This document shows, in pieces, positions 24,803-44,856 of a DNA stretch of 64,000 bases. How positions within the stretch are numbered: the stretch's first letter is position 1; the number at the start of each line of letters is the position of its first letter. The translations under genes were made by a program, and so were the position numbers. The DNA comes from Paracoccus wurundjeri. GTDB taxonomy: Bacteria; Pseudomonadota; Alphaproteobacteria; Rhodobacterales; Rhodobacteraceae. The notes beneath the pieces were generated by a model. The model searched no databases. It saw nothing but the letters and a program-made list of their open reading frames with translations, and was not told where the DNA came from. Location: assembly GCF_030678915.1 (NCBI RefSeq), contig NZ_JAUUTZ010000005.1, forward strand, positions 124,001 to 188,000. Reading direction: 5' to 3'.

Positions 24803-24887
24803 GGCTATGCTTATCACGGAATTTGTTATCGCGACAATAAAAAAGCTGGACATGGGGCTTCACCGCTCTTATGAAGAATATTATCGC

Positions 24888-24910: not shown

Positions 24911-24923
24911 AATGGAGATGATC

Positions 24924-25349: not shown

Positions 25350-25459
25350 GGCGGCTTCCGCAAACGCGGGCCATCATCACCAGCGCCGAACCCCTTTGGA
25401 CCAGACGCCGAAGGCGGTTCGCCGCCAGACACTCATTGATATTAGCAAAGGAAGCAAAG

Positions 25460-25957: not shown

Positions 25958-25963
25958 CCTGTG
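25932..25963. terminator. 11-bp hairpin overlapping a stop codon between convergent genes
   Basis: CACAGGTCAGC pairs perfectly with GCTGACCTGTG across a 10-base loop, spanning the last codons and stop of the membrane-protein gene. The next gene ends 15 bases away on the other strand, so the hairpin probably acts on both transcripts. There is no clear U-tract. Confidence 0.5.
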
Positions 25964-25977
25964 CGGCTGCTGCCGGT

Positions 25978-26733: not shown

Positions 26734-26904
26734 GTCTTTTTCCTCATGTTGAGCGGATGAAAGGAAGATGGGGCAGAAAGGCGTGGCAGAGTTGCCCATT
26801 CCTCGCGCAATCTTGCCTGTTTCCGTGAAATCAGCGGATATCTCTTGCATATATGGCCGACATCCTTGCCTGATACTGCAAGCGGGTTACTCTGGGGCCA
26901 ACTG

Positions 26905-27780: not shown

Positions 27781-27869
27781 GGCGCGACCCGGCTCACGCA
27801 TGTGGACGCGATTTTCCGGCATCATGGAATATGATGGAAGTTTACCGCTACGGCAGGCGTCAGAGAGCG

Positions 27870-29216: not shown

Positions 29217-30158
29217 CCGTCTATTCCTCACTGGGTTGCAGAGCGATGTTATTTCGGGCGGATTCTTATCGAAATCAATAAGCTGAGCGAAATTCCAGTC
29301 CCTTCCGGATCAAATCATATACGTCACCGCACAGCAAGCCGCACCGGGCATCGTCCGGCCTCATCGGCAGATCACGGTCAGAAGACGCTATATCGGTCGT
29401 AACGAATACCGCCCTGCGGTTGAGGCGGCAAAACAGGTTGCACGGTACAAACTAAACAGAAACGGAGTAACGATGTTCCCGTGAAAATCCTCGTGCCGGG
29501 CCGGACTCCGCGCCAAACCCCTACGGGTTTCTGACGGAAACATCGGGGCGAGGGAGGGTGACAGGTCCGACTTCTATCCCTGTGGCGACAACATCATTTC
29601 GCCGGACAAGATCTGATGAGCAGATCGTTATCCATACGCGGCCAGCAGATGCGCCAGAGACAGACATCGCATTTCCCTTTGGATACCCGGATGGCGCGCC
29701 GGGATCGCAGCGCGATCCTGAAGTCAGGCAGGAGGGACCAACGACCTGGCCGGCCGACTTCATGCCGACGGCCATCCGGGTCCGAAACAACGCGACGGAT
29801 ACAACATCTCCGGTCAAGTCACGAGGGTCAGAGGCCGACCTGGCCGAACAGGGAACATCATGTTGCGATCCGAATGTCTCGATGTCGTTCCGGTCGTGCT
29901 GAAACCTCAGGCGCCGAAGATTGTTCCAGACAGGCGCAACTTCCTGACGGGCTCAGGTTTTTCGCCGCTGCATCCGTTATCCGGGTCTCCGCGCCGGCAG
30001 AGTTAGGCGGATGGTCTGGATTGCGGCGCTGCCTTGGGTGTTGCAGGCTTGGCGAATGACAGATCATCGGCCCCTGACGGCTGAAACCTTCCGGATCGCA
30101 ATGGCCGGATCGCTACCGACGGATCGGAACAGCCTGCCGAACAATACGAGGATATGAT
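29217..30158. other. Long intergenic region between otsA and ndh
   Basis: 942 bases between divergent genes. It contains the EcfG-type promoter of otsA (29455-29479). Several short open frames exist on both strands between 29520 and 30006, but none shows a recognisable domain or a consistent coding frame. The stretch may be decayed sequence. No hairpin with a U-tract was noticed. Confidence 0.5.
29455..29479 (-). promoter_or_regulatory. EcfG-type general-stress promoter for otsA
   Basis: On the minus strand this reads GGAAC-N16-TGTT, the -35/-10 pattern recognised by the alphaproteobacterial general-stress sigma factor. It implies a leader of about 240 bases to the otsA start. Eight other copies with the same spacing lie in the next 15 kb. 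Confidence 0.6.
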
Positions 30159-31430
30159 ATGCGCCAGAAAATCGTCGTGATCGGAGCGGGTTTCGCAGGT
30201 CTTGAGCTTGTCTCGAGGCTGAAAGGCACGGATTGCGATATCACCCTGATCGACCGCCGCAACCATCACCTGTTTCAGCCGCTGCTGTATCAGGTCGCGA
30301 CAACGGTCCTGTCCACCGCCGAGGTCGCCTGGCCGGTTCGCCGCCTGTTTCGCAAGCGGAAGGACGTGACGACCCTGATGGCCGATGTGACCGATATCGA
30401 TCGTATGCGGAAAAAGGTGATTTGCGCGGATGGCACCAAGGTGGATTATGATTGGCTCGCGGTGGCCACGGGCGCGGGGCATACCTATTTCGGGCATGAC
30501 GAATGGGAAAGATTTGCGCCGGGGCTGAAGACGCTCGAAGACGCCACCACGATCCGCCGCCATCTGTTGCAGGCATTCGAAAAGGCCGAACTCACGGGCG
30601 ACGATGCTGAACGGCAGGCATTGCTGACATTCGTCATCATCGGCGCGGGACCGACCGGGGTCGAACTGGCCGGCAGCATAGCCGAACTGTGCCACCGCGT
30701 CCTGCCATCGGATTTCCGGCGTATCGATACCCGCGCCACCCGTATCATCCTTGTCGAGGCGGGCGACCGCATTCTGGCCGGTTTCGATCCGAAACTGTCT
30801 GAATATGCGGCCTCGGCGCTTCAGCAGCGGGGGGTTCAGGTCAGGACCGGCGCGCAAGTCACCGATATCACGGCCGAAGGCGTCAGGATCGGCGATGCTT
30901 TCCTGCAATCCCGAACGGTACTTTGGGCCGCAGGGGTCCGCGCCTCGCCCGCCGCCGAGTGGCTGGGCGCCGAAACCGACCGCGCGGGCCGCGCAAAGGT
31001 AAGCGAAACCCTGCGGTTGCCCGACGATCCATCCGTTTTCGTTCTGGGCGACACCGCGCATATCGTCAGTGCGGGTTCGATGGTTCCAGGCGTCGCGCCC
31101 GCCGCCAAACAGCAGGGCGCTTATGCCGCCAGAGTCATCAGGGCGGCGTTACGTGGGAAACCCGCCCCGCCGCCATTCCGCTACCGGCATCAGGGCGATC
31201 TGGCGACGATCGGACGAAACGCGGCGATCATCGATCTGGGCAGGCTCACCCTGTCGGGACGTCTGGCATGGTGGGTCTGGGGAATATCCCATATCTATTT
31301 CCTGATCGGGACCCGCTCGCGCATTTTCGTTGCGCTAAGCTGGCTCTGGAGTTTTCTGACACGGCAGAATTCGGGCAGGCTCATCACCCAATCCGACAAG
31401 GTCGTGCCGCGGAACGACAGGCAAAGCTGA
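30159..31430 (+). CDS. ndh: Type II NADH dehydrogenase (NDH-2)
   Basis: 423-residue FAD protein that passes electrons from NADH to quinone without pumping protons. The FAD loop GAGFAGLEL is at the N-terminus, the NADH-binding GAGPTGVELAGSIAEL near 163-178, and the second FAD motif VLGDTAHI near 295. A hydrophobic, basic C-terminal segment (YFLIGTRSRIFVALSW) serves as the membrane anchor, as in other NDH-2 enzymes. GAGGA precedes the ATG. No EcfG-type promoter was seen immediately upstream, unlike its neighbours. Confidence 0.92.
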   Translation: MRQKIVVIGAGFAGLELVSRLKGTDCDITLIDRRNHHLFQPLLYQVATTVLSTAEVAWPVRRLFRKRKDVTTLMADVTDIDRMRKKVICADGTKVDYDWLAVATGAGHTYFGHDEWERFAPGLKTLEDATTIRRHLLQAFEKAELTGDDAERQALLTFVIIGAGPTGVELAGSIAELCHRVLPSDFRRIDTRATRIILVEAGDRILAGFDPKLSEYAASALQQRGVQVRTGAQVTDITAEGVRIGDAFLQSRTVLWAAGVRASPAAEWLGAETDRAGRAKVSETLRLPDDPSVFVLGDTAHIVSAGSMVPGVAPAAKQQGAYAARVIRAALRGKPAPPPFRYRHQGDLATIGRNAAIIDLGRLTLSGRLAWWVWGISHIYFLIGTRSRIFVALSWLWSFLTRQNSGRLITQSDKVVPRNDRQS

Positions 31431-31467
31431 GCTTTCGCCAACCACTTGACGGCCAGTGGCAGGCAAG

Positions 31468-31492
31468 GGAACAAATTCCACGGCATGAGGTT
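31468..31492 (+). promoter_or_regulatory. EcfG-type general-stress promoter for the TIGR02587/TIGR02588 pair
   Basis: GGAAC at 31468-31472 and GGTT at 31489-31492 are separated by exactly 16 bases, 36 bases before the TIGR02587 start. It follows the ndh stop (31430), so the two membrane proteins probably form a separate stress-induced unit. Confidence 0.65.
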
Positions 31493-31527
31493 TCACCTCT
31501 GCATCGCGACATGAGGCTTGCAATCCG

Positions 31528-32355
31528 ATGAACTCGCTTCCGGTCGACCCCCACAATCAACGCGCCTTGCGGGATATGGGCCGGGCGGCGGCTGGTGCGC
31601 TGCTTTTCTCGCTGCCGATGCTGATGACAATGGAGCTTTGGTATATCGCGCTCTATATCGAGCGATGGAAGCTGCTCTTGTTCCTGTTCTCGTCATTTCC
31701 CCTGCTGATCCTGCTGTCGCGGATGATCGGGTTTGAAAAGACCACGGGCTGGTCCGAAGCCATCAAAGACAGTATGGTCGCGGTCGGCATCTCGTTCTCG
31801 ACCTGTTTCGTCATTCTGTTCCTGCTGGGTGTCCTGTCCTCCGATCTGAATCTGGACAACCTGACCGCCGCGGTCGCGGTGCAACTGGTTCCGGCCTCGA
31901 TCGGCGCCTTGCTGGCCCGCAGCCAGCTTGGCGTCGAAAAGGCCGAGGACAACGAACGACCGGAAAGCTATTCGCGCGAATTGTTCCTGATGGCGGTCGG
32001 TGCCCTGTTTCTTGCATTCAATGTTGCCCCCACGGAAGAAACGCTGCTTATCTCTTACAAGATCACCTATCTGCATACGCTTGCCATCCTTGCCGTCTCG
32101 CTTCTGATCATGCATGGCTTCGTGTTTTCGCTTGGCTTCGCAGGTGGCCGCGAACTGACGGATGAACTGACCACGCCCCGCGCGTTTCTGTTCTTCACGT
32201 TGCCCGGATATGTGATCTCGGCTCTGCTCAGCCTCTATCTGCTGTGGATCTTCGGCTCGCTGGATGGATTGGCGCCGGGCGCGATAAGCAAGGCGGTTGT
32301 CGTGCAGGCCCTGCCCGCCTCGATCGGCGCTGCCGCGGCGCGGCTGATCCTGTGA
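31528..32355 (+). CDS. TIGR02587-family integral membrane protein
   Basis: 275 residues with about seven hydrophobic helices and two internal similar-looking segments (AVQLVPASIGALLARSQL and VVQALPASIGAAAARLIL, which share the core VPASIGA/LPASIGA pattern). This matches the TIGR02587 family, whose members are normally paired with TIGR02588 proteins, as here. Function is unknown. The pattern repeat suggests an internal duplication. The start follows GAGG at a somewhat long distance, and 11 bases separate its stop from the next gene. Confidence 0.8.
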   Translation: MNSLPVDPHNQRALRDMGRAAAGALLFSLPMLMTMELWYIALYIERWKLLLFLFSSFPLLILLSRMIGFEKTTGWSEAIKDSMVAVGISFSTCFVILFLLGVLSSDLNLDNLTAAVAVQLVPASIGALLARSQLGVEKAEDNERPESYSRELFLMAVGALFLAFNVAPTEETLLISYKITYLHTLAILAVSLLIMHGFVFSLGFAGGRELTDELTTPRAFLFFTLPGYVISALLSLYLLWIFGSLDGLAPGAISKAVVVQALPASIGAAAARLIL

Positions 32356-32366
32356 CGGAGGAAAAG

Positions 32367-32759
32367 ATGGCTGACAACAGCAAGAGAGATTCCAGACAAA
32401 AGCCGCTGGCCGAGACGGTCGTCGGCATCTTGTCCGCCGTGCTGGTCTTTGCGTTCGTGATCTTTCTGGCCCATCAGGCCATCACCGGCGACAGGTCTCC
32501 GCCTGACCTTGAGGCCATCCCTGAAACCGCGCTGCGGCAAGAGGGCAAGACGCTGCTCAGGGTGAAAATCGTCAATCGCGGCGAAAGGGCCGCCGCCGAT
32601 GTCACGGTCCGGGCGGAAATGCCCAAGGGTCCCGGCCGGGAGATCCGCTTTGACTATGTTGCCGCAGGATCGAGCCAGAGCGGAGCTTTTCTTTTCGACA
32701 GCCCGGATGTGGCGGCAGAAGATATTCGCCTGAGCATTTACGGTTTCGTCGAACCCTGA
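32367..32759 (+). CDS. TIGR02588-family protein (single TM, periplasmic Ig-like tail)
   Basis: 130 residues. One helix at about 16-40 (VVGILSAVLVFAFVIFLAH) is followed by a C-terminal beta-rich domain (LRVKIVNRGERAAADVTVRAEM) resembling a CARDB-like fold. This is the TIGR02588 partner of the upstream protein; both are of unknown function. CGGAGG (32356-32361) provides the ribosome site for the ATG at 32367; the open frame begins earlier, inside the upstream gene, and is not used. Confidence 0.82.
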   Translation: MADNSKRDSRQKPLAETVVGILSAVLVFAFVIFLAHQAITGDRSPPDLEAIPETALRQEGKTLLRVKIVNRGERAAADVTVRAEMPKGPGREIRFDYVAAGSSQSGAFLFDSPDVAAEDIRLSIYGFVEP

Positions 32760-32832
32760 TCGCGCATCGTTCCGGCATCCGATCCGCCGCTAGCGCGCGC
32801 CCGGTCATCGCAGGACGCAAATAACCGGTATG

Positions 32833-32857
32833 GGAACATGATCGCGCCTTACCGGTT
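32833..32857 (+). promoter_or_regulatory. EcfG-type general-stress promoter for the SDR gene
   Basis: GGAAC at 32833-32837 and GGTT at 32854-32857 with a 16-base spacer, on the plus strand. It lies 122 bases before the SDR start at 32980. Confidence 0.62.
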
Positions 32858-32979
32858 TCCGGCGCAGCGTCCGGGAAAACGACAGGACGCGCCGACATGT
32901 CCTTCATGTGACGGATGCGGCGGCTGTAGCCACGCTTTTTGCCCGCAGCCGCATCGGCAAAACGGAATTGGAGAAAACG

Positions 32980-33852
32980 ATGCAAAGCCATCCTCAGGAA
33001 AAGCACATTCATCCGCCCCTGCCCGAACAGCAACAGGAAATGCCCGGTCTGACCGAAGAGATGACCCCTCGTCCCGACCACGGCGAGGAAAGCTATCGCG
33101 GCAGCGGCAGGCTGGAGGACAAGGTGGCCATCATCACCGGCGCGGATTCGGGGATCGGCCGGGCAGTCGCCATAGCTTTTGCGCGTGAAGGGGCGGATGT
33201 CGTCATCAATTACCTTGAAGAGGATAATGACGCGCGGGAAACCGCCCGCTGGGTCGAGAAGGCCGGGCGCAAGGCGCTGGTGGCGCGGGGCGATATCTCG
33301 GATCAGGCTTTTGCGCGAACGCTTATCGACAGGACCATTGCGGAATGGGGCCGCCTTGATATCCTCGTGAACAATGCCGCCCATCAGGCGACATTCGAAC
33401 GGCTGGAGGATATCACGGCCGAGGAATGGGAACTGACCTTCCGCACGAATATCCATGCCATGTTTTACCTCTGCCAAGCGGCGCTAAAACATATGAAACC
33501 GGGATCGGCCATCATCAATACATCCTCGATCAATGCAACCAGCCCGTCGCCCACGCTGCTGGCCTATGCCACGACGAAAGGCGCAATCGCCAATTTCACC
33601 GCCGGACTCGCGGGGCTTCTTGCCGATCGGGGAATCCGCGTCAATGCGGTTGCTCCGGGGCCGATATGGACGCCGCTGATCCCATCGACCATGCCCCCCG
33701 AAAAGGTCAGGAATTTCGGCAGGAACACCCCGATGAAACGCCCGGGGCAGCCCGCAGAACTGGCCGCGACCTATGTGCTGCTTGCCTCCCCGGAATCGAG
33801 TTATACGACCGGTGCGCTCTATGAGGTGACAGGCGGCCGGGCAATGCTATGA
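32980..33852 (+). CDS. SDR-family oxidoreductase of the YhdF/GsiB glucose-dehydrogenase-like subgroup
   Basis: 290 residues. A polar N-terminal extension (QSHPQEKHIHPPLPEQQQ, about 2-19) precedes the SDR core: TGADSGIG (about 51-58), NNAAH, the Ser-Tyr-Lys centre (TSSINAT, YATTKG) and a PGPIWTPL substrate loop. The extended N-terminus is characteristic of stress-induced SDRs such as YhdF/YghA-type enzymes, often SigB- or RpoS-controlled in other bacteria. GGAGAAA precedes the ATG at 32980. Substrate unknown. Confidence 0.88.
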   Translation: MQSHPQEKHIHPPLPEQQQEMPGLTEEMTPRPDHGEESYRGSGRLEDKVAIITGADSGIGRAVAIAFAREGADVVINYLEEDNDARETARWVEKAGRKALVARGDISDQAFARTLIDRTIAEWGRLDILVNNAAHQATFERLEDITAEEWELTFRTNIHAMFYLCQAALKHMKPGSAIINTSSINATSPSPTLLAYATTKGAIANFTAGLAGLLADRGIRVNAVAPGPIWTPLIPSTMPPEKVRNFGRNTPMKRPGQPAELAATYVLLASPESSYTTGALYEVTGGRAML

Positions 33853-33985
33853 CGCCAGAGCCGCGCGGTTGCGGGCAATTCCGGCCGCGCGGTGATCCGG
33901 CCGTGCCCCGCCATGGGCGCTTTTTCCCATTGTCGTCACGCATGGCGCAGCAGCGCCATGCGAACGGTGAGACGGCCGGCTGCAA

Positions 33986-34486
33986 TCAACCCACAGCTTC
34001 GACAGCTTCCTGATTTGCGGATTTGTCGGCTATGCCCGTCAGTTTTTCGTCGGCGGCAGATTCCTCGTCCAGGGTTCTGGACAGCAAGTCCTCGGCTTCC
34101 GACAGACCCAGCATCCCGGCCCAGCGTTTCAGGGTTCCGTAGCGGGTGATTTCGTAATGTTCGACGGCCTGCGCCGCGGAAATCAGCCCGGCATCCAGCG
34201 CCGGAGAATCCTTGAAGGACTGCATGATCTCTTCGCCTTCCTCGATGATGCCGTCGATGGCAGGGCAGGTTTTTCCGCGCGCCTGCTTGTCGATCAATGC
34301 GAAGACGTTCTGAAGGCGTTCCACATGGGTCTCGGTTTCCTCGCGATGCGCTTCGAAAGCCGAGCGCAGCTTGTCGGACTGCGCGCCGCGCGCCATCTTG
34401 GGCAATGCCTTCAGAATCTGACGTTCGGCATAATAGATGTCCCGGAGCGTATCATGAAACAGATCGTCAAGTGCCTTGGTCTTCAT
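33986..34486 (-). CDS. YciE-like ferritin-fold stress protein (DUF892)
   Basis: 166 residues. The N-terminus has the DUF892 signature DLFHDTLRDIYYAERQILKAL (split at 8-28), with ferritin-like Glu and His ligands (YAERQ, EETETHVERL, EHYEI). These proteins form small dimers with a diiron-like site and respond to osmotic and general stress. AAAGGAA precedes the ATG at 34486; the earlier in-frame Met codons are not supported. A GGAAC-N16-GGTT promoter lies 50 bases upstream. Confidence 0.9.
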   Translation of the reverse strand: MKTKALDDLFHDTLRDIYYAERQILKALPKMARGAQSDKLRSAFEAHREETETHVERLQNVFALIDKQARGKTCPAIDGIIEEGEEIMQSFKDSPALDAGLISAAQAVEHYEITRYGTLKRWAGMLGLSEAEDLLSRTLDEESAADEKLTGIADKSANQEAVEAVG

Positions 34487-34534
34487 CGGAGTTTCCTTTC
34501 GTTTTGGCCGCCATTGGTGGCGGACGGCCAGACA

Positions 34535-34559
34535 AACCGGAAAATCCGCAGGATGTTCC
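34535..34559 (-). promoter_or_regulatory. EcfG-type general-stress promoter for the YciE-like gene
   Basis: On the minus strand: GGAAC-N16-GGTT (complement of 34535-34559). It ends about 50 bases before the ATG at 34486. Confidence 0.65.
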
Positions 34560-34667
34560 TGGCCGTCGTCACAAACCGGCATCTGTGCTCCCAAGACGAT
34601 CAGCAAGGGCATTCGGGGTCAGCCGGATATATGCCCACCCGGAGTTTCCGGCGGCACGCAAAACCCG

Positions 34668-35318
34668 TCACCCACGAGGCCGCCACTGATCCATCAATTC
34701 GGCCAGCGGCGCGGTTTCGATCTGCCTGCCGAAACGCGATTCATAGATCCGCATCGCCGCGTCATGTGTGGGATCAGCCGATGAACAGACCGCGTCCGAG
34801 ATCAGGATAACCCGATAGCCCCGGTCGATTGCGCCCAGCACCGTGGCAAGGACACAGATTTCGGTCTCACCGCCGGTAATGATCAAGGTCGAAATCCCGG
34901 CCGCCTGTAAAAACCCGTGCAACCTGCCATCCGGCCATGGCGAGTAAAGCTGTTTGTCGAACTGCCGCGCGGGTGGGACATGGCGCGCCAGCGCAGAAGG
35001 CAGTTCCAGCCAGTCGGCGGAAAGGCGGTCGCGCAGCATCTGCGGCCAGGCGGCATAGTAACGCGCCCATGTCCCGGCATATTTTTCGGCATCCGCCGGC
35101 GGAATGAAGCGCGTGAATATGGTGCGCGCCGCATGCGCGGCGGTCAGTTCACTCACCGCAGGCAGGATTTTTTCCATCCACGGCACAGCCCATGACGATC
35201 CCGGCCCGAAAAGCCGCTGCATATCCACGCAAAGATGCACCGCCTCGTCGCCGGGCGGCCCGAATCTGATCCCTGTCACGGCGTCAAATCCTTTCCCGTC
35301 ATCATTCCCGTATCTCAT
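34668..35318 (-). CDS. Isochorismatase-like cysteine hydrolase
   Basis: 216 residues of the cysteine hydrolase (isochorismatase/nicotinamidase) fold. The catalytic triad is recognisable: Asp in CVDMQRLF (about 31), Lys in FDKQLYSPW (about 117) and Cys in ETEICVLAT (about 150). Substrate is not known; the segment GGETEICV is common in amidase-like members. Its start lies 6 bases from the end of the upstream small-protein gene, so the two are probably co-transcribed from the promoter at 35631-35655. Confidence 0.85.
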   Translation of the reverse strand: MRYGNDDGKGFDAVTGIRFGPPGDEAVHLCVDMQRLFGPGSSWAVPWMEKILPAVSELTAAHAARTIFTRFIPPADAEKYAGTWARYYAAWPQMLRDRLSADWLELPSALARHVPPARQFDKQLYSPWPDGRLHGFLQAAGISTLIITGGETEICVLATVLGAIDRGYRVILISDAVCSSADPTHDAAMRIYESRFGRQIETAPLAELMDQWRPRG

Positions 35319-35324
35319 TCATGG

Positions 35325-35558
35325 TCAATAATTGGCGGGCGGATCGCTTGCGGGAAAGGATTCGTCGGATTGTTCATCGACGATATCCCATCGCTTGGGC
35401 GGCGCCTGCATCTGCGCTCTGCCTGCGGGCCGGACATAATCGCCTCGACCCTTCCTTCTTTCGCGCCGCGATGGCGCGGACAACAGATTGCACGCCATCA
35501 CGAGACCGATACCGGCGATGATGCCAAGGCAGAAACTTAACGGATCGGTTCGTCTCAT
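35325..35558 (-). CDS. 77-residue single-TM protein with SDESFPASDPP tail
   Basis: One hydrophobic helix (LSFCLGIIAGIGLVMACNLL, about 7-26) is followed by a basic linker and a conserved-looking C-terminal tail WDIVDEQSDESFPASDPP (about 57-74). The tail motif recurs in many small alphaproteobacterial proteins of unknown function. The ATG at 35558 follows AGGAAAGG; the longer frame adds 51 residues without homology. It is upstream of the cysteine hydrolase gene, with an EcfG-type promoter 73 bases upstream. Confidence 0.78.
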   Translation of the reverse strand: MRRTDPLSFCLGIIAGIGLVMACNLLSAPSRRERRKGRGDYVRPAGRAQMQAPPKRWDIVDEQSDESFPASDPPANY

Positions 35559-35630
35559 ATCATAGGCCTTTCCTGAAACAGAAGGATCACGCGGCAATTC
35601 CCGGGCCGGGGCTGTTCCTGATCGGCGAAA

Positions 35631-35655
35631 AACAGAGACGATGCGTGATTGTTCC
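35631..35655 (-). promoter_or_regulatory. EcfG-type promoter for the small membrane protein/cysteine hydrolase unit
   Basis: Minus-strand GGAAC-N16-TGTT (complement of 35631-35655), 73 bases before the start at 35558. It stands back to back with the plus-strand copy at 35716-35740, so one intergenic region carries two divergent stress promoters. Confidence 0.58.
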
Positions 35656-35715
35656 TGAATCTCTGATGACGCGAAATGCCGCATCAACCCGGGATAACCG
35701 CAGTTCAGCAAGTTC

Positions 35716-35740
35716 GGAACATATGATGCTGCGGCCTGTT
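35716..35740 (+). promoter_or_regulatory. EcfG-type promoter for the TPP-dependent enzyme
   Basis: GGAAC at 35716-35720 and TGTT at 35737-35740, spacer 16 bases, 34 bases before the ATG at 35775. Confidence 0.62.
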
Positions 35741-35774
35741 ACCCGCCCTTTCGCCAAATAACAGGAAGCACCCC

Positions 35775-37553: not shown

Positions 37554-37733
37554 TACCACGGCAACGGCCGGACCGGCCCTGATATCACATGCCGCCCCGA
37601 AAGCCGGTTACCATCGATCCTCGACCGAATTGAACCCCGTCAACGGCCCCATCTTCGCCCGGCGGCACGTTGTTTCACATAGCCGGCGCGACCGGGATAT
37701 GCGTCCGCAAGCCCGCTGGAACTCCATATGCCT

Positions 37734-38312
37734 TCAGAACCCCGGCCCGGCAGAGAACCGCAGGTTATTCTGAACATGCACAACGCCGGAAATCGACTCG
37801 GCGCATTCCCCGGCGCGGCGTTTGGCTTGCCTGGAGTCGACATAACCGTTCAAGGTGACCTCGGCCCCGACCACCACGACCTCCATCCGCCGGGCATCAA
37901 GCAGATCGTCGTCCATAAGCCGCTCGTTGATTTCCTCGAAAAGGCGATCATCCGGGCGGATATATCCACGCGGACCTTGCCCCCGATGATCAGCATCACG
38001 AGCAGCGCCAAAATCGGAGCTCATCCCGCCGCTCAAACGGGGTCCCTTTTCGGCGCTGGTCAGCATCGTCGTGCCATAGGCGTAACACGCAGGCAAAGGA
38101 TCTTCCCGGATATCTCCGCTGCGGCGACGCCCCCCCGTGCCGGAGGTCCAACCGGCGCCGAAATTGGAACTCATCCCACCGCTCAGGCGCGGAGCCTCGT
38201 CATGATTTCCCTGCCGCGCGGGATGGAACGGATATCCGGGCCGGAAGCGATACCGGTCCTTATAAATCCGTTCATCCGAATACGGACGACAGGGCTTGCG
38301 GGATCGGGTCAT
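37734..38312 (-). CDS. BON-domain protein with a duplicated N-terminal motif
   Basis: 192 residues. The C-terminal third (RLFEEINERLMDDDLLDARRMEVVVVGAEVTLNGYVDS, split over about 124-162) is a BON domain, found in OsmY-like periplasmic and envelope stress proteins. The N-terminal part is low-complexity, rich in Arg/Pro/Gly, with two copies of PRLSGGMSS(N/D)FGA. There is no obvious signal peptide. AAGGAG lies 7 bases before the ATG at 38312; a TTG is 6 bases earlier. It follows the DUF3008 gene on the same strand and may share its promoter. Confidence 0.78.
   Translation of the reverse strand: MTRSRKPCRPYSDERIYKDRYRFRPGYPFHPARQGNHDEAPRLSGGMSSNFGAGWTSGTGGRRRSGDIREDPLPACYAYGTTMLTSAEKGPRLSGGMSSDFGAARDADHRGQGPRGYIRPDDRLFEEINERLMDDDLLDARRMEVVVVGAEVTLNGYVDSRQAKRRAGECAESISGVVHVQNNLRFSAGPGF
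38008..38195 (-). repeat. Two imperfect direct repeats inside the BON gene
   Basis: Positions 38008-38045 and 38158-38195 are similar over about 38 bases (GAGCTCATCCCGCCGCTCA versus GAACTCATCCCACCGCTCA). They encode the duplicated PRLSGGMSS motif. The 150-base period suggests a past tandem duplication of a segment that later diverged. Confidence 0.7.
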
Positions 38313-38465
38313 CTTCAACTCCTTGTTCGGCGAATGCTGACCAGCCGTTCAGGCATCTGTCCGATGGATCGGAAACCCGTACCGATACGCCTTTGCTATC
38401 CGCGATCAGCAGCCGGGAAGCGCAATATGTCCTATCTGCGTCCACGAGCAGCCGGCGGACCGGTA

Positions 38466-38651
38466 TCAGCTTCTTTTATGCTCTGGCTTACCCTTGCGAG
38501 GGGTGCTGGCGAGTTCTTCCAGTTCCTTCTCGCTCATGGATTCCACCATTTGCCGGGAAGCACCCTTCAGATCGCTCTTCTTGGCCTCTCCGCGCTTTAC
38601 GGCCAGGGCAGCCCCGGCAGCCTTCTGCTGAGCCTGTGATTTCGCAGGCAT
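38466..38651 (-). CDS. DUF3008-family small protein
   Basis: 61 residues starting PAKSQAQQKAAGAALAVKRG, the hallmark of DUF3008, and rich in Lys, Ala and Glu. Members are small, basic, predicted helical proteins of unknown function. AGGAGG lies 6 bases before the ATG at 38651. A GGAAC-N16-GGTT promoter lies 28 bases upstream. The BON gene is downstream with a 153-base gap. Confidence 0.88.
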   Translation of the reverse strand: MPAKSQAQQKAAGAALAVKRGEAKKSDLKGASRQMVESMSEKELEELASTPRKGKPEHKRS

Positions 38652-38679
38652 GACAACCTCCTGATTTTGGGTTTCCGTC

Positions 38680-38704
38680 AACCTGCAAGCTTCGCTTATG
38701 TTCC
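38680..38704 (-). promoter_or_regulatory. EcfG-type general-stress promoter for DUF3008 (and possibly BON) genes
   Basis: Minus-strand GGAAC-N16-GGTT (complement of 38680-38704). Distance to the DUF3008 start is 28 bases, ideal for a short leader with an SD site. Confidence 0.68.
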
Positions 38705-38775
38705 AGCGGAATTATCACATGGCGCGGCATGTCAATCATCCATCTGAGAATTATAGGAAATATTCACCGCCCACG

Positions 38776-38937
38776 CATTATCGCGATACTCTCGTTCTGG
38801 TGATCATGATGGGCGAAAGCTATGAAGATGCCACCCGGATTTGCGGGGTCACCATAGGCACCATCAAAAGCCGCATTCACCGCGCCCGGGCCATGACATT
38901 GCAAACATTGGGCGAAACCACATTGGCGGAACCGTGA
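38776..38937 (+). pseudogene. C-terminal remnant of an ECF sigma factor (region 4)
   Basis: The last 53 codons of this frame read RDTLVLVIMMGESYEDATR followed by ICGVTIGTIKSRIHRARAM. This is the helix-turn-helix of sigma region 4 in the EcfG/RpoE-like family. The region 2 half and linker are absent; upstream the frame (open from an ATG at 38698) is unrelated sequence. No working sigma factor can come from it. It may be the decayed copy of a stress sigma gene that once lived in this island. Confidence 0.7.
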
Positions 38938-39016
38938 ATGCAACCGGCATATGGGGAACGATTTCTTTTCGTTCACTGGTATGGCCCTTTTGCACGGCGA
39001 TCCGTCCTGACGGTTG

Positions 39017-39041
39017 GAACAACTCCGCCAGCCACCTGTTC
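39017..39041 (+). promoter_or_regulatory. EcfG-type promoter for the second PQQ dehydrogenase
   Basis: GGAAC at 39017-39021 and TGTT at 39038-39041, spacer 16 bases. It is 170 bases upstream of the ATG at 39212. The same transcript could continue into otsB and topoisomerase IB. Confidence 0.58.
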
Positions 39042-39211
39042 CTGCTTCCTGCGCCCATGAGCGGCACCTGAAGGCGATGTCAGCAAAGCCAGAAAGGATG
39101 AACCTACGTGGCTGCCCGAAAACCGGCAGGCAAAACGGTTTGCGCGACGAAATCCGGTCATCGCCCTTCGAAACCTGCATCAGGAGTATCCGCAACTCAG
39201 GAGGATGTATC

Positions 39212-41401
39212 ATGATTCCAAGATTTCCGACCCTCTGGCTTCTGGCGCTAAGCGTTGCGGTTGCGCCGGTATTTGCTCAGGACGATCAGCCATCGCCAAC
39301 GCCGGATAACCCGCCCGCCGAAACGCCCGCACAGGAAGCAGATCCCGAACCGGGGCCGGCAGCGGAAACCGATGAAAGCGCCGCGGACATCCCCGGCACT
39401 GCGGAAACCACAGCGGGCGAAACGCCCGCTGCTGATCGCGCAGCCACCGATATCCCCGAACAGGCAAGCGAGGATTGGCCCTTATACGGCGGCGGCGCGC
39501 CTGCGGCGCGCTACTCTCCGCTTGACCAGATAAACGCCGGCAATGTCGCCGGGCTCGAACGCGCTTTCATCTATCGCACCGGCGATATGCCCGAGGGCAC
39601 GGCGATGGACAAATATTCGCCCGAGACCACTCCGCTCAAGATCGGTGATGATCTCATTCTGTGTTCGGCGATGAATGTGCTCATATCGGTCGACGCGGCC
39701 ACCGGCGACGAAAACTGGCGTTTCGATCCCGATGTGCCAAATGAGGCTATCCCCTACGGCGCCAGTTGCCGCGGCGTCTCGACCTATACCAATCCGGATG
39801 CTGCCGAAGGCGACCGTTGTTCCACGCGGGTGATCGAGGGGACGCTTGACGCCAGGCTGATTGCCGTCGATCTGAAAACCGGCGAGCCCTGTGAGGATTT
39901 CGGCGAGAACGGAACCGTGGATCTCTGGCAGGACATCGGCGAGCGTGTACCAAGCTGGTATTCCGTAACCTCGCCGCCGGCAGTGGTGCGCGGAGTGGTG
40001 GTAACCGGCGCGCAGGTCAGGGACGGTCAGGCCGAAGATGCGCCCTCGGGCGTCATGCGCGGCTATGACGCCGTAACCGGCGAATTCCTATGGGCGTGGG
40101 ATCTTGCCGCGCCCGACGCGCATCGCGACGGACCACCGGAAGGCGAGGTTTATACCCGCGGCACGCCCAATATGTGGACCACCGCGGTCGCCGATGAAGA
40201 ACTGGGTTATGTTTACCTGCCACTGGGTAACTCTTCGGTCGACTATTACGGTTCGAACAGATCTGCCGAGGAAAATGAGTTTTCCACCTCGCTCGTGGCG
40301 CTGGACGCCACCACCGGCGAGGAAGTCTGGCACTTCCAGACCGTGCGCAACGATGTCTGGGATTATGACCTTGGCAGCCAGCCGACGCTGATCAACTTCA
40401 GGGATACCCCTGCCCTCGTATTGCCGTCGAAACAGGGCGATATCTACATTCTGGATCGCGAGTCCGGTCAGCCGCTGACACCGGTCGGTGAACTGTCCGG
40501 GCTTCCCAAGGGCGAAATCGAACCCGACTACATTTCGGACACCCAGCCCGTTTCCGAATGGCACAGTCTGCGCAAACCGCCGCTTGAACCGAAGGACGCC
40601 TGGGGCTTCACCCCGATCGATCAGCTCTGGTGCCGGATCCAGTTCCACCGCGCCAATTATCAGGGCATCTATACGCCACCTTCCAGCGAACGTCCGTGGA
40701 TCCAGTATCCCGGCTATAACGGCGGCTCTGACTGGGGATCGGTGGCTGTCGATCCGGAACGCAATATCATGATCGCCAATTACAATGACGTTCCCAACTA
40801 CAACCGCCTGCTGACGGAACAGGAAGTCGAGGAACGAAATCTTACCCCGATCCATATGAAGTCCGGCAGCGAGGCGGAGAGCGAGAATCCGCAGGAGCCG
40901 AATGGCGAAAACACGGGCAAGCATTCCGAAGGCGACGGCTCTCCGCAAAGCGGCGCGCCCTATGGTATCGAGGTGAACGCCGGCTGGCGCAATCCGGTCA
41001 CCGGCATCCCCTGCACCGAGCCTCCCTATGGCGGGATCCGGGCCATCGATCTTGATACCGGCGAGACCATCTGGGACACGGCGCTGGGCACCGCGCGCGA
41101 AAACGGGCCATTCGGCATTCCTTCGCGCCTGCCCTTCAAGATCGGGACGCCCAATAATGGCGGGCCGGTGGTCACGGCCGGAGGGATAGCCTTTATCGGT
41201 GCCGCCACCGACAATCTTTTCAGGGCCATCGACATCGAAACCGGTGAAACTTTATGGAGCGACGTGTTGCCTGCGGGTGGTCAGGCCAACCCGATCGTCT
41301 ACGAGGTCGACGGGCGCCAATATGTGATGATCGCAGCGGCCGGACATCATTTCATGGAAACGCCCATCGGCGATTACCTTATCGCCTATGCCCTGCCTTG
41401 A
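39212..41401 (+). CDS. Periplasmic PQQ-dependent dehydrogenase with Pro/Ala/Glu-rich linker
   Basis: 729 residues. A signal peptide (RFPTLWLLALSVAVAPVFA, cleavage near AQDD) is followed by about 60 residues rich in Pro, Ala, Glu and Thr, then the PQQ beta-propeller from EDWPLYGGGAPAARYSPLDQ (about 89) to the end. It is related to gcd at 4051 but lacks the five-helix anchor, so it is exported and soluble or held by another means. Repeats such as DAATGDENW and DATTGEEVW match the family. AGGAGG is 7 bases before the ATG. The substrate is unknown: glucose, quinate and other polyols are possible. An EcfG-type promoter upstream suggests stress-dependent expression. Confidence 0.85.
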   Translation: MIPRFPTLWLLALSVAVAPVFAQDDQPSPTPDNPPAETPAQEADPEPGPAAETDESAADIPGTAETTAGETPAADRAATDIPEQASEDWPLYGGGAPAARYSPLDQINAGNVAGLERAFIYRTGDMPEGTAMDKYSPETTPLKIGDDLILCSAMNVLISVDAATGDENWRFDPDVPNEAIPYGASCRGVSTYTNPDAAEGDRCSTRVIEGTLDARLIAVDLKTGEPCEDFGENGTVDLWQDIGERVPSWYSVTSPPAVVRGVVVTGAQVRDGQAEDAPSGVMRGYDAVTGEFLWAWDLAAPDAHRDGPPEGEVYTRGTPNMWTTAVADEELGYVYLPLGNSSVDYYGSNRSAEENEFSTSLVALDATTGEEVWHFQTVRNDVWDYDLGSQPTLINFRDTPALVLPSKQGDIYILDRESGQPLTPVGELSGLPKGEIEPDYISDTQPVSEWHSLRKPPLEPKDAWGFTPIDQLWCRIQFHRANYQGIYTPPSSERPWIQYPGYNGGSDWGSVAVDPERNIMIANYNDVPNYNRLLTEQEVEERNLTPIHMKSGSEAESENPQEPNGENTGKHSEGDGSPQSGAPYGIEVNAGWRNPVTGIPCTEPPYGGIRAIDLDTGETIWDTALGTARENGPFGIPSRLPFKIGTPNNGGPVVTAGGIAFIGAATDNLFRAIDIETGETLWSDVLPAGGQANPIVYEVDGRQYVMIAAAGHHFMETPIGDYLIAYALP

Positions 41402-41662
41402 GACGGGGATACCGGGACAGAATTCCCCGATCACCGCTCCCCGCGATCGGGGTTGGCAGTTTCGTTCCGATACAGGACGCATTCGCGCGACGCCGTGGGT
41501 GCGTCCGCAATCATGACCGAACCGGATCATTGTAGCTCGTGCGGAAGCCACGCGCTTCCGGAACGGCTCAACTGGATTTTCGGCGGCAGGTCCGGCAACA
41601 TCGTGAAGACGGATATCATGTTCCAAAGCGGCGATATCCCGCATAACAAGGAGGAACGTCAG

Positions 41663-42388
41663 TTGCAGCCACCAAACCTGCCGGAAAACGCCGCGCTGTT
41701 TCTGGATTTCGACGGTTGTCTGGTAGAGCTCGCCCCTACTCCCGATGCGGTTGTCGTACCCGGCGGGCTGCCCGCGCGGCTGGAACGGCTATACAGGCGG
41801 CAAGGCGGCGCCGTGGCACTGATTTCCGGCCGTAACATTGCGGATCTGATCCACTACCTGCCCGGATTTCCCGGTATGATCGCAGGCGGTCACGGCGCCG
41901 AATTGCGGCTTTCCGGCGGTCGGATCGAGACAATAGCGGCAGCGCGATCCGATATCGTCAACCTGCACGACCGGGTCCGGAAGCTTGCCGCGAGCCATGA
42001 CGGATTGCTTGTGGAGCCAAAACCGCATGGCGTCGTAATGCATTATCGCGCCGCGCCGGATCTCGCCGGATGGGTGGCCCGGGCGATGGAGGGATTGGCC
42101 GCGGATTTCCCCGAACTGGCCATACAGCATGGCAAGATGGTCATCGAATTGCGCCCCAGGGACGCAAGCAAGGACCGCGCCTTGTCCCGGCTGATGGCGA
42201 TGCCGGATTTCGAGGGGCGTCCGCCGGTCTATATCGGCGACGATCTGACGGACGAGGCGGCGATGGCCGAGGCGCAGGCGCGCGGTGGCCTTGGTATCAA
42301 GATCGGGACGGGTGAGACCTGCGCCCTTTACCGTCTTAAGGGTCCGCGGGCCTTGTCGGATTGGCTGGACCTCTCGCTTGACGATTGA
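41663..42388 (+). CDS. otsB: Trehalose-6-phosphate phosphatase, TTG start
   Basis: 241-residue HAD-family phosphatase. Motif I is LFLDFDGCLVEL (about 14-25) and motif IV YIGDDLTDEAAM (about 190-201), with a cap domain between. It removes phosphate from trehalose-6-phosphate made by OtsA. The frame is open from 41453, but the added 70 residues have no homology. A TTG at 41663 has AAGGAGG (41649-41655) 7 bases upstream and gives the usual length. It lies between the PQQ dehydrogenase and topoisomerase IB genes, away from otsA. Confidence 0.88.
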   Translation: MQPPNLPENAALFLDFDGCLVELAPTPDAVVVPGGLPARLERLYRRQGGAVALISGRNIADLIHYLPGFPGMIAGGHGAELRLSGGRIETIAAARSDIVNLHDRVRKLAASHDGLLVEPKPHGVVMHYRAAPDLAGWVARAMEGLAADFPELAIQHGKMVIELRPRDASKDRALSRLMAMPDFEGRPPVYIGDDLTDEAAMAEAQARGGLGIKIGTGETCALYRLKGPRALSDWLDLSLDD

Positions 42389-42455
42389 CGCATTGAAAGA
42401 ACGCCCGTGGCGCGGATGAAATGTCCCCGGCCGCAATCATCAGAAAGGGGCGGGC

Positions 42456-43550
42456 ATGTTCCACCCCCGCGAACCGCCGGAATTCATCATGTCAGGATGC
42501 CCGCCAGATATGTCAGACCCGCGAAATGCCGCGAAAAAGGCGGGCCTGATCTATGTGAATGACGACCTGCCCGGCATCACCCGTATCCGTGCGGGCAAGG
42601 GCTTTTCCTATCGCGACCCCAAAGGGCGCCGGATCGCCGACAGGGCCGAGCGCAACCGGCTTGCTGCAATTGCCGTGCCTCCGGCCTATCGCGACGTGTG
42701 GATCTGCCCCGATCCGCGCGGCCATATCCAGGCCACGGGCCGGGACGCGCGCGGGCGGAAACAATATCTCTATCATCCCGATTTCCGCGCATTCCGGGAA
42801 CATGCGAAATTCGATCACATAGTGGAATTCGCGCAGGTCCTGCCGACAATCCGCGCACAGCTCCGCAAGGACATGGCACGAAGGGGGCTGTCGGCGCGTA
42901 AAGTTCTGGCGACGGTGGTTTTTCTGCTTGAAGACACCTTGATCCGGGTCGGCAACGACGATTATGCCCGTCAGAACAACTCTCGTGGCCTGACCACGCT
43001 TCGCGGCCGTCATGTTCAGCTCCACGCCAGCAAGGTCCGGTTTCACTTCAAGGGCAAAGGCGGCAAGGAATGGGATCTGAGTGTCCGCAACCCTCGCGTC
43101 GCCCGGATCATTCGCCTGATACAGGATTTGCCCGGACAGCACCTGTTCCAATATCTGGACAAGGACGGCGCAAGACAGAAAATCAGCTCGACCGATGTGA
43201 ACGATTATCTTCGCGACATCTCGGGCCAAGAGGTGACGGCCAAGGATTTCCGGACCTGGGCCGGTACGGTTCTGGCCATGCGGGAGCTTTCGCGATATGC
43301 GGATTTCGAAAGCGAAGCGGACGCGAAACGCAATATCGGCGAAGCTGTCGCGACCGTCGCGGATCGACTGGGCAACACCCCGGCGATCTGCCGGAAATGT
43401 TACATCCACCCCCGGATAATCGACGCCTATCTGTCCGGCAAACTCGGATCGGAACGGCGTGGCGAACAGAACAACCGGCGGCAGGTGACAGGGCTGAGAT
43501 CCGATGAAAAACGGGTGCTGAAACTTCTGGGCGGCAAGCGGCAAGCCTGA
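42456..43550 (+). CDS. DNA topoisomerase IB (poxvirus/eukaryote-like)
   Basis: 364 residues. The type IB tyrosine recombinase-like fold is evident, with the nucleophilic Tyr in CRKCYIHPRI near residue 313, the catalytic Arg/Lys region (KAKGGKEWDL-like KFKGKGGKEW) and Arg in LRDISGQEVTAKDFRTW. It relaxes supercoils through a 3'-phosphotyrosyl link. AAAGGGG lies before the ATG at 42456; MSDP at 42510 is an alternative. It follows otsB by 67 bases. Bacterial copies are often in stress or Ku/LigD-type contexts, although no ku or ligD is visible. Confidence 0.88.
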   Translation: MFHPREPPEFIMSGCPPDMSDPRNAAKKAGLIYVNDDLPGITRIRAGKGFSYRDPKGRRIADRAERNRLAAIAVPPAYRDVWICPDPRGHIQATGRDARGRKQYLYHPDFRAFREHAKFDHIVEFAQVLPTIRAQLRKDMARRGLSARKVLATVVFLLEDTLIRVGNDDYARQNNSRGLTTLRGRHVQLHASKVRFHFKGKGGKEWDLSVRNPRVARIIRLIQDLPGQHLFQYLDKDGARQKISSTDVNDYLRDISGQEVTAKDFRTWAGTVLAMRELSRYADFESEADAKRNIGEAVATVADRLGNTPAICRKCYIHPRIIDAYLSGKLGSERRGEQNNRRQVTGLRSDEKRVLKLLGGKRQA

Positions 43551-43556
43551 TCCCGA

Positions 43557-43874
43557 TTATGTGGCAATGACATATATGATGACGAGGATCACGACCACGA
43601 AGCAAATCACCCCCGCTACCCTCCAGCCATCTCCATTGGCCGCTTGGGTCCCGAAACCGCGATCCGGCTGCCCGGGCGTCTGTTCGTCCGACCGGCCGGA
43701 AATCTCTGACCGGCGCGCATGGCGGACCTGTTCGGCTGTAGGAGGAAAGCCCGAAGCCTCGTCATCCGTTCCAAGCGGCGCGGCGGCGGGATCGGGGAAA
43801 TCAACCTTGTCCTTCGCCCGCCCCCGATCGATATCCTGACGCAGCCGTTCGGAGTGATCCGTTTTTCTGACCAT
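43557..43874 (-). CDS. Small protein with C-terminal transmembrane helix
   Basis: 105 residues. A long, charged, Asp/Arg/Gly-rich N-terminal part is followed by one hydrophobic helix at the C-terminus (WRVAGVICFVVVILVIIYVIA, split near 84-104), so it looks tail-anchored. I do not recognise a family. AGGGAG lies 7 bases before the ATG at 43874. It is 48 bases after the hemerythrin gene on the same strand, so co-expression is likely. It is convergent with the topoisomerase gene, only 6 bases away. Confidence 0.68.
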   Translation of the reverse strand: MVRKTDHSERLRQDIDRGRAKDKVDFPDPAAAPLGTDDEASGFPPTAEQVRHARRSEISGRSDEQTPGQPDRGFGTQAANGDGWRVAGVICFVVVILVIIYVIAT

Positions 43875-43922
43875 GCGTGACTCCCTGTGGCCGCTCGTCA
43901 AACAGAGGAAGTTGGCCGGGGA

Positions 43923-44774
43923 TCATCCATCCCACCAACCGCCCCGCCCTATACAGTGCTGAACATGTTTCGCGGCTTCATCATCCTGATCGTCATGCTT
44001 CGATTGGCCGGCATCCCCCTGCCGCTTCTGCCCGGCGCTGCAGGGGCCCTTGACCGTACCGTCATCGACCGAAACGTCATCGGCCCTCGGGTCGGGCGCT
44101 TGGCCCGGATCGTGGTCACGCAAAGGAAGCGGCCGGGGCAATGGCGTTGTCCCGGCATGTTTTGGCGTTTTCCCGGTACTCAGATGACGAAGTTTCAACT
44201 TCGTCCTTCCCGGTTCATCCACCAGCAAATCCTTGTGATCCAGATAGAACTCGCCCACGATTCTGGCACTGACGCCGGCAGCTTTCATCTTGTCGATCAG
44301 TCCTTTTTCGGATCGCTCCTCGTCTTCGATGAAGTTATGGATAATCTTCCCGGCCACGCGTAACCGCGCAATATCCACGTATTTCTCGTACGGAACCCGG
44401 GTATTTAACAGAAACGACACAAGGTCGGCGACGACTTCCGCATCCGCAAGCGGTTCGTAAGTCCGCAAGCCCATATGACAGGCTTCCTCATACAGAACCT
44501 GATGCAGGACTTCGTGCTTCCTCCAACATTCAAGCAGGTTTTTCTGCAAGTTTTCAGCTTGTTCGGTGCTGGTAATATTTTCGCTTTCCCGAACGAGAGC
44601 CTTCAGTTCCCGATGCTGCTTCTTCAGTAATTCGAAGCCATCTTCTTCCACGTCATCAGCGGAATCCCGATCCATCCCGCGATCCGCCGCACCGGCAGAC
44701 TGCGATATTGCGGCATCTGTCGCACGATCGGTCGCGGCAGCCGGTTTTGGCACCTGTTTTCTCTCTGATATCAT
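43923..44774 (-). CDS. Hemerythrin-domain protein with low-complexity C-terminal tail
   Basis: 283 residues. A polar, Ala/Asp-rich N-terminus is followed by a hemerythrin/HHE domain at about 45-180: QHRELKALVR, WRKHEVLHQVLYEEACH and HNFIEDEE carry the expected His and Glu iron ligands. After a conserved EFYLDHKDLLVDEP segment the last 85 residues are low-complexity (His, Asp, Gln, Pro), perhaps a disordered tail or read-through of formerly noncoding DNA. HHE proteins act in oxygen, NO or redox stress. GGAGG precedes the ATG at 44774; the earlier codons are unsupported. Confidence 0.8.
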   Translation of the reverse strand: MISERKQVPKPAAATDRATDAAISQSAGAADRGMDRDSADDVEEDGFELLKKQHRELKALVRESENITSTEQAENLQKNLLECWRKHEVLHQVLYEEACHMGLRTYEPLADAEVVADLVSFLLNTRVPYEKYVDIARLRVAGKIIHNFIEDEERSEKGLIDKMKAAGVSARIVGEFYLDHKDLLVDEPGRTKLKLRHLSTGKTPKHAGTTPLPRPLPLRDHDPGQAPDPRADDVSVDDGTVKGPCSAGQKRQGDAGQSKHDDQDDEAAKHVQHCIGRGGWWDG

Positions 44775-44831
44775 CGCCTGATCCTCCCTTCGCGATGTTC
44801 CCTGAACTGCCCCTTGTCGACGAAGTGCCAT

Positions 44832-44856
44832 AACCGGCTGCAACGGAAAATGTTCC
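44832..44856 (-). promoter_or_regulatory. EcfG-type promoter for the hemerythrin gene
   Basis: Minus-strand GGAAC-N16-GGTT (complement of 44832-44856), about 58 bases upstream of the ATG at 44774. It probably also serves the small tail-anchored protein downstream. Confidence 0.65.

Follow-up and report, generated by a model that had tools for sequence, protein, structure and literature searches.

A probable general-stress regulon island in Paracoccus wurundjeri, with EcfG-type promoters likely read by an accessory sigma factor

Promoter sites and genes of the window island

We analyzed a 64,000-nucleotide (nt) stretch of Paracoccus wurundjeri DNA (the window; positions 124,001 to 188,000 of contig NZ_JAUUTZ010000005.1, or G000:C45:124001-188000 in our genome:contig notation, C45 being one of 74 contigs, 230 kb long, that make up the 5.08-Mb genome). 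Within it, positions 29455 to 44856 carry a series of sites of the form GGAAC-N16-(G/T)GTT, which resemble promoters of EcfG, the general-stress sigma factor of extracytoplasmic function (ECF) group ECF15. A first-pass annotation, made from the sequence alone, had listed nine such sites. All nine exist on the strands given, but one lies a base to the left of its assigned place (39016-39040 rather than 39017-39041), and a tenth, at 29903-29927 (-), had been overlooked. As the annotation had it, each of the nine is oriented toward a gene start downstream, at distances of ~28 to 240 nt (Table 1). A simple pattern found a Shine-Dalgarno-like stretch before the start in seven of the nine cases; none was found for the site at 31468, and that for the site at 32833 was unconvincing.

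The pattern also occurs far more often than chance would allow, again as claimed: the window holds 13 copies, where 100 dinucleotide shuffles gave 0.56 on average and 3 at most, and 11 of the 13 fall within 29455-44856. All ten island sites have the -35 box (GGAAC) and the spacing (N16) of EcfG (ECF15) promoters. The -10 box is the part of the EcfG assignment that did not hold, since all ten carry (G/T)GTT in place of CGTT; with no copy of the CGTT form in the window, CGTT was ruled out as the -10 box of the island. The ten sites further share an A followed by A or T directly after GGAAC, which yields the refined motif GGAACA(A/T)-N14-(G/T)GTT.

The genes downstream are of the kinds typical of EcfG general-stress targets, with some reservations about their names. 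The DUF2391 membrane protein scores over the TIGR02587 cut-off, and the pyrroloquinoline quinone (PQQ)-dependent dehydrogenase scores below the cut-off of its family. The frame after the membrane protein has no Pfam match, the name otsB is presumptive, and the label "hemerythrin" was not confirmed, the protein having no Pfam or NCBIfam match.

Table 1. EcfG-type promoter sites and associated features of the window island (positions in the window)
Feature	Position	Strand	Downstream genes or remark
EcfG-type promoter site	29455..29479	-	toward otsA (27870-29216, -); leader ~239 nt
Tenth site, same form	29903..29927	-	no predicted gene within 600 bp downstream on own strand
EcfG-type promoter site	31468..31492	+	toward DUF2391/TIGR02587 membrane protein (31528-32355, +), then open reading frame 32244-32759
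EcfG-type promoter site	32833..32857	+	toward short-chain dehydrogenase (32980-33852, +)
EcfG-type promoter site	34535..34559	-	toward YciE-like DUF892 protein (33986-34486, -)
EcfG-type promoter site	35631..35655	-	toward 77-amino-acid protein (35325-35558, -) and isochorismatase-like hydrolase (34668-35318, -)
EcfG-type promoter site	35716..35740	+	toward thiamine-pyrophosphate enzyme (35775-37553, +)
EcfG-type promoter site	38680..38704	-	toward DUF3008 protein (38466-38651, -), then BON protein (37734-38312, -)
ecfG2 relic	38769..38952	+	95% identical to ecfG2 3' end; region sigma-4 only
EcfG-type promoter site	39016..39040	+	toward PQQ-dependent dehydrogenase (39212-41401, +)
Mirror-image site	39018..39042	-	opposite strand of the 39016 inverted repeat
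Genes beyond the PQQ-dependent dehydrogenase			otsB-like (41453-42388); topoisomerase IB (42504-43550; Pfam match)
EcfG-type promoter site	44832..44856	-	toward hemerythrin-like protein (43923-44774, -)

The site at 39016 is an inverted repeat, GGAACA-N15-TGTTCC, that can be read on either strand, and positions 39016-39042 are possibly a pair of overlapping two-way promoters. As a side observation, a GTTCC end is seen in 9 of the 140 refined sites that lie between genes; the -35 and -10 boxes are partly complementary by nature.

A refined motif concentrated on one contig

The annotation had looked to enrichment of the motif across the genome, and this stood in part. The loose pattern GGAAC-N16/17-(C/G/T)GTT occurs 229 times versus 233 for its reversed pattern and was dropped as a genome-wide signature. 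The refined motif, by comparison, occurs 32 times versus 4 for the reversed-pattern control, and contig C45 holds 20 of these 32 sites, ten at 24,713-40,089 and ten in the window island. In this Paracoccus, the recognizable sites thus cluster mainly in a pair of islands that share a contig. When the refined core was allowed spacings of N15-N18 and any first -10 base, 75 matches were obtained (control, 31); the spacing was N16 in 40 of the 75, and G or T stood first in the -10 box of 32 of those 40 (counted by eye).

Assignments of sites to genes depend on our home-made gene caller, by which two of the 20 C45 sites are intragenic (33810, which falls in a long frame between katE and its neighbors, and 34535, owing to a long alternative start of the YciE-like gene); one of the 20 is still in a gene when same-strand genes ending within 60 bp of a site are ignored. 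Off C45 there are 12 refined sites, 7 inside genes and 5 outside; of the latter, C13:9756 precedes a 78-amino-acid protein and the other four lie on C1, C35, C7 and C42 (C42:1247).

Core regulators, EcfG2 and a second island

The annotation had called for a search for ecfG, phyR and nepR, and all three are present at one locus on contig C4, with phyR divergent from nepR-ecfG. More specifically, NepR scores over its Pfam cut-off, PhyR over that of NF006623, and the sigma factor, EcfG1, over those of NF009198 and NF009199. The promoter of this core locus reads GGAAC-N17-GGTT with C at position 6.

A second sigma factor gene, ecfG2, lies at C45:29810-30322, outside the window in the second island. 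Its product (170 amino acids) is 43% identical to EcfG1 and draws the same five top NCBIfam models, all below their cut-offs, while exceeding the cut-off of TIGR02937. Because EcfG2 did not reach the cut-off of NF009198, the model that covers EcfG1 (141.9 bits; cut-off, 270), we regard it as a divergent paralogue and not as the core EcfG. The closest solved chain is 5uxx, an RNA polymerase sigma factor structure that we take to be EcfG bound to NepR. The second island (C45:24.7-40.1 kb) also encodes Cu/Zn superoxide dismutase, catalase, CBS, PRC-barrel and MgtC-like proteins, as well as a response regulator with SdrG (E 6e-9) among its relatives of solved structure and 2lpm as the best match. 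Neither island yielded a PhyR. An 89-amino-acid frame with a ribosome-binding-like stretch (L068:9452-9721, i.e., C45:29452-29721) lies between a refined promoter site and ecfG2; it matched no Pfam family.

The window itself contains a ~185-bp copy of the ecfG2 end that runs 16 bases past the gene (Table 1). This fragment was set aside as a working gene, being a near-copy of the ecfG2 end without region sigma-2. The relic implies that the window island probably once carried, or recombined with, a copy of ecfG2. One might go further and see in the whole window island a decaying remnant, whose own ecfG2 was reduced to the relic and whose promoters are no longer meaningfully driven. We consider this very unlikely: the relic is indeed 95% identical to the intact gene end, but the full motif is kept at all ten sites, the genes have open frames, and an intact EcfG2 encoded on the same contig could act in trans.

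A family of NepR-like small proteins beside ecfG2

A family of ~50-60-amino-acid proteins with the typical core LDKALSELLAQTEKEPISPRLRELAKRL is encoded beside ecfG2. Across the 39 EcfG2 loci of 32 Paracoccus genomes, 36 loci gave a match to a profile of this family at E <1e-3, and at 31 of the 39 the matching gene was less than 1 kb away from ecfG2, with distances counted from the open-frame start and with 14 of the 39 loci having supplied the profile seeds. In contrast, none of 20 EcfG1 loci gave a match, and nor did the window. The source genome has two such genes, at C45:27515-27685 and C45:30443-30607, the latter ~120 bp after ecfG2.

We compared this family with NepR, the anti-sigma factor of the core system, and the outcome depended on the profile. 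A wide NepR profile, built from 64 NepR-type sequences gathered by iteration and including none of the small proteins, was matched at 85.7% (P 5.5e-6) over 33 gapless columns. Two results oppose a kinship with NepR. First, the cut-off of the Pfam NepR family (PF18557) was not reached, only 1 of 16 family members being matched at all (E 0.067), and a PF18557 search of the source genome found only the core NepR. Second, the match to a profile of Paracoccus NepR alone was weak (21.9% and 17.8%; 3.5% in global mode). On balance, the small proteins are probable NepR relatives and putative anti-sigma factors.

Refined sites accompany EcfG2 across Paracoccus

We examined 91 Paracoccus genomes, the source genome included, and scored EcfG2 as present where a protein of at least 48% identity appeared among the matches listed, which was the case in 32. 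By the same matches, genomes with an EcfG2-like gene (n = 32) carried a mean of 22.0 refined sites and those without (n = 59) a mean of 8.9 (Mann-Whitney p 7e-11), the control-pattern means being 2.8 and 2.2, respectively; this comparison ignores kinship and incompleteness (genomes 71-100% complete), which tells against it. Consistently, 40 regions around EcfG2-like genes (746 kb, including two regions from outside Paracoccus with 0 sites each) contained 141 refined sites and no control match, whereas 20 regions around EcfG1 (400 kb) contained neither. N16 is the dominant spacing in the 40 regions, and 114 of the 141 sites fall outside genes, although intergenic DNA makes up 17.6% of the sequence.

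Clustering of the sites, taken as lying <6 kb from another, exceeded all 2000 random placements in the six genomes with full site lists, source genome included (G058 was left out). We also noted refined-site clusters off the contig of the best EcfG2-like gene, like the window island, at G048:C2:1018872-1027505 and G005:C11:188543-214844. The extended consensus of 140 sites is C.GGAACA(A/T)T-N11-CC(G/T)GTT, part of which is fixed by the collecting pattern.

Homologues of the island genes keep the site to different degrees. In 45 regions around EcfG2-like genes, we looked for a refined site from -400 to +60 of each homologue, and found one for 13 of 16 YciE-like homologues and for all 7 hemerythrin-like homologues (33-36% identical). 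Lower fractions were obtained for SodC (3/4), short-chain dehydrogenase (8/19), isochorismatase (3/11), PQQ dehydrogenase (2/5), NDH-2-like (1/2), DUF3008 (1/5) and PRC (1/8) proteins, and the single otsA and BON homologues each had a site (1/1). For otsB and the CBS protein, these regions contained no homologue.

These data bear on the possibility that the sites cluster by chance or base composition, or belong to an unrelated ECF sigma factor, such as one of the RpoE type with a GGAAC box. The GGAAC box is common to several ECF groups, and the genome has at least three further ECF-like genes (C34, C14 and C16). Chance is excluded by the shuffles and the reversed-pattern control, however, and an unrelated reader fits poorly with sites that track EcfG2-like genes across the genus and are kept before some island genes in relatives. 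We therefore judge this explanation extremely improbable.

EcfG2 or EcfG1 as the reader

Taken together, the encoded PhyR, NepR and EcfG, the EcfG-type -35 box and spacing, and the sites retained by homologues in relatives bear out the proposal of an EcfG-type general-stress island. It is likely, judging from sequence comparison, that the sites are EcfG-family (ECF15) promoters and that the 15-kb stretch is a general-stress regulon island read by EcfG2.

Several findings pull the other way. GGAAC-N16-CGTT, the canonical form, is absent from the window, where shuffles predict 0.46 copies. At just 8 of 39 loci is ecfG2 preceded by a refined site at a distance of up to 600 bp, so that self-activation of ecfG2 is not general. 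In genome G077, clustering only just exceeded the random placements (7 versus a maximum of 6), and a single one of the 19 sites lies within 15 kb of ecfG2. In the 45 regions described above, no refined site was found upstream of homologues of the 77-amino-acid protein (0/10), response regulator (0/9), topoisomerase IB (0/4), DUF2391 protein (0/3), KatE (0/3), thiamine-pyrophosphate enzyme (0/1) or MgtC (0/1); these zero counts may partly reflect genes inside operons, and several of the families have looser N16 sites instead. Two further points concern EcfG1. At 20 EcfG1 loci, all 20 promoters have the same -35 box, and the first -10 base is G in 11, T in 4 and C in 5 (tallied by eye; the L153 site is by phyR, ~900 bp from nepR). 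Moreover, genomes lacking EcfG2 keep convincing refined sites, e.g., G047:C1:341612/341643 and G001:C32, in a set of 35 rows from 30 loci of 8 genomes; these genomes were picked because they were rich in sites, and some rows are repeated where loci overlap.

The two points on EcfG1 lend themselves to another explanation, namely that the island promoters are ordinary EcfG1 targets, that EcfG2 is redundant or silent, and that the -10 variant is a genus-wide preference. As EcfG1's own promoters prefer G or T (15 of 20), a G/T -10 box is not specific to EcfG2, and we did not uphold a changed -10 preference as an EcfG2-only trait. Some of the refined sites in EcfG2-lacking genomes are well placed, and EcfG1 probably reads some of the convincing ones. 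In addition, both EcfG paralogues of Sphingopyxis transcribe TGTT and GGTT promoters in vitro (PMC7083833). Speaking against it, all 20 phyR-nepR promoters of the EcfG1 loci carry C or T at position 6 and 14 of the 20 are spaced N17, and the island sites are set apart from them only by A at position 6 and strict N16. Site numbers also follow the presence of EcfG2, and the absence of refined sites around EcfG1 stands against their abundance around EcfG2. We hold the EcfG1 explanation to be unlikely and infer that the sites are read mainly by EcfG2; EcfG1 may act at these promoters as well.

EcfG2 beyond the genus and on plasmids

A scan of named genomes returned 514 relatives, and we used the best 80 of these loci; their genera are, we assume, mostly members of Rhizobiales, Rhodobacterales and Caulobacterales. 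Around these 80 loci (1.52 Mb), loose N16 sites numbered 318 (control, 31) and refined sites 59 (control, 2). The first -10 base differed by sigma clade, in a tally in which clade and taxon are confounded and from which L208 was left out as a duplicate of L109. In the EcfG2 clade (49 loci, presumably mostly Rhodobacterales with one Pleomorphomonas), it was G in 166, T in 67, C in 41 and A in 10 sites; in the largest other sigma group (47 loci), C in 135, T in 14, G in 7 and A in 6; and in a Rhizobiales accessory group (25 loci), G in 54, C in 37, T in 25 and A in 22. A tree of the sigma factors (fast method, midpoint root, some long branches, no outside ECF group) grouped the source EcfG2 with genes of Carideicomes and Phaeobacter; their clade, of 48 rows, takes in the Paracoccus EcfG2 genes and is separate from EcfG1.

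Plasmid records supplied 14 Paracoccus plasmids among the best 40 EcfG2 matches (50-56% identity). At least five EcfG2 loci are probably on Paracoccus plasmids, their contigs being as long as one of these records (G005:C10, G011:C4, G058:C3, G070:C2 and G077:C5); others lie on contigs of >2 Mb (G048:C1, G070:C1 and G090:C1). On plasmid IV of P. aminovorans, the ecfG2 neighborhood is alike, with superoxide dismutase, ferritin-like, DUF3008, PRC-barrel and Ku proteins and a PAS-HWE histidine kinase. The plasmid collection contained no closely similar plasmid, and no record matched more than 10% of the island. A RepC-type plasmid origin on C45 was rejected: RepC (PF03428) had no match in the genome, and a simple motif search found no ParA- or ParB-like protein among the 207 predicted C45 genes.

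We further searched 52 stretches, comprising the relatives' islands and pieces of C45 including the window, with one query per protein. Relatives of the HWE kinase (P. aminovorans query) occurred in 10 of the 52, one being the query locus and two matching the PAS part only, and relatives of the island response regulator occurred in 12, its own locus included. A full PhyR was found in none, although one receiver-domain match was obtained (L263).

A proposed mechanism and its relation to known systems

From these comparisons, we propose that EcfG2 would be held at rest by the NepR-like anti-sigma factor. Under stress, kinases would act on the core PhyR encoded on C4, or on the island's own regulator, by a signal route that we can only suggest, and EcfG2 would be freed. 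Free EcfG2 would then transcribe from GGAACA(A/T)-N14-(G/T)GTT in both islands, which should raise trehalose synthesis and the output of catalase, superoxide dismutase, ferritin-like, DUF3008, hemerythrin-like and other proteins. We also put forward, tentatively and at somewhat less than even chances, a broader proposal: the greater part of the recognizable general-stress regulon of Paracoccus and its Rhodobacterales relatives may have left EcfG1 for a portable package of EcfG2, a divergent NepR-type anti-sigma factor, in some cases an HWE kinase or an SdrG-like regulator, and target islands with a matched promoter, carried on plasmids in at least five loci and borrowing only PhyR from the chromosome.

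The arrangement resembles the core PhyR-NepR-EcfG (ECF15) system with its GGAAC-N16/17-CGTT promoters in the usual gene order, the -35 box, the spacing and the typical target genes. The Paracoccus islands differ in having (G/T)GTT instead of CGTT, an added A(A/T) after GGAAC, and targets packed into two islands. The Paracoccus EcfG2 clade presumably consists mostly of Rhodobacterales genes, unlike the EcfG2 of Rhizobium etli. The core system, accessory EcfG copies and plasmid-borne EcfG2 in Rhizobium are already known (PMC3892343). In R. etli, the EcfG2 subgroup is plasmid-borne, its regulon overlap is limited, each sigma factor prefers its own promoter, and no motif was found for EcfG2-regulated genes (PMC3892343). 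Both organisms have a second EcfG; Paracoccus adds a proposed motif, target islands and a NepR-like neighbor.

Two EcfG paralogues likewise occur in Sphingopyxis granuli, where GGTT and TGTT -10 templates were transcribed in vitro, a single regulon comprises 79 putative transcriptional units, and CGTT is the commonest of 14 -10 boxes; the available text describes no target islands (PMC7083833). Similarly, EcfG-dependent genes of Sphingomonas melonis include motifs ending in GGTT or TGTT, but they form one dispersed target list with N17-20 before GTT, and no accessory sigma island is described in the portion available (PMC6599016). The use of GGTT and TGTT in these two organisms makes a variant -10 box plausible and not unheard of. 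Methylobacterium extorquens has several EcfG and NepR paralogues; two of the latter bind PhyR, their binding to sigma factors was apparently not detected, and the accessible part of the report mentions no island in which an accessory ecfG has a NepR-like gene next to it (PMC4814048).

Among literature titles, a set with subscription journals mostly outside it, none dealt with EcfG in Paracoccus or with EcfG targets in islands with their own sigma factor. In 2013, the reason for the extra EcfG copies of many Alphaproteobacteria was called unexplained (PMC3892343); comparative genomics here supplies a motif, a target list and a candidate anti-sigma factor for one such accessory EcfG. In Rhodobacter sphaeroides, PhyR is without a major role in general stress (PMC5830050), which may relate to accessory islands carrying part of the response in this order. 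If the proposal holds true, stress resistance would have a simple route of spread between strains in a sigma factor that travels together with its targets.

Additional observations

Two of the intergenic refined sites off C45 are followed, 7 bases on, by ~110-base stretches that are 86% identical to each other (C1:106233-106342 and C35:17464-17568). The pair folds into several hairpins, including a strong terminal one that is followed, in C1, by a T-rich tail. Neither place matched Rfam, and no full-length copy was found among the other 91 same-genus genomes searched; the two stretches are candidates for a stress-induced small RNA in two copies. A comparable hairpin lies ~100 bases downstream of the C7 site (718-742 of locus L031), which is near the contig end, and an Rfam ROSE thermosensor match occurs elsewhere in the same locus (L031:969-1071). 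Finally, frames at C45:55-69 kb, read by eye, resemble a cobalamin biosynthesis cluster.

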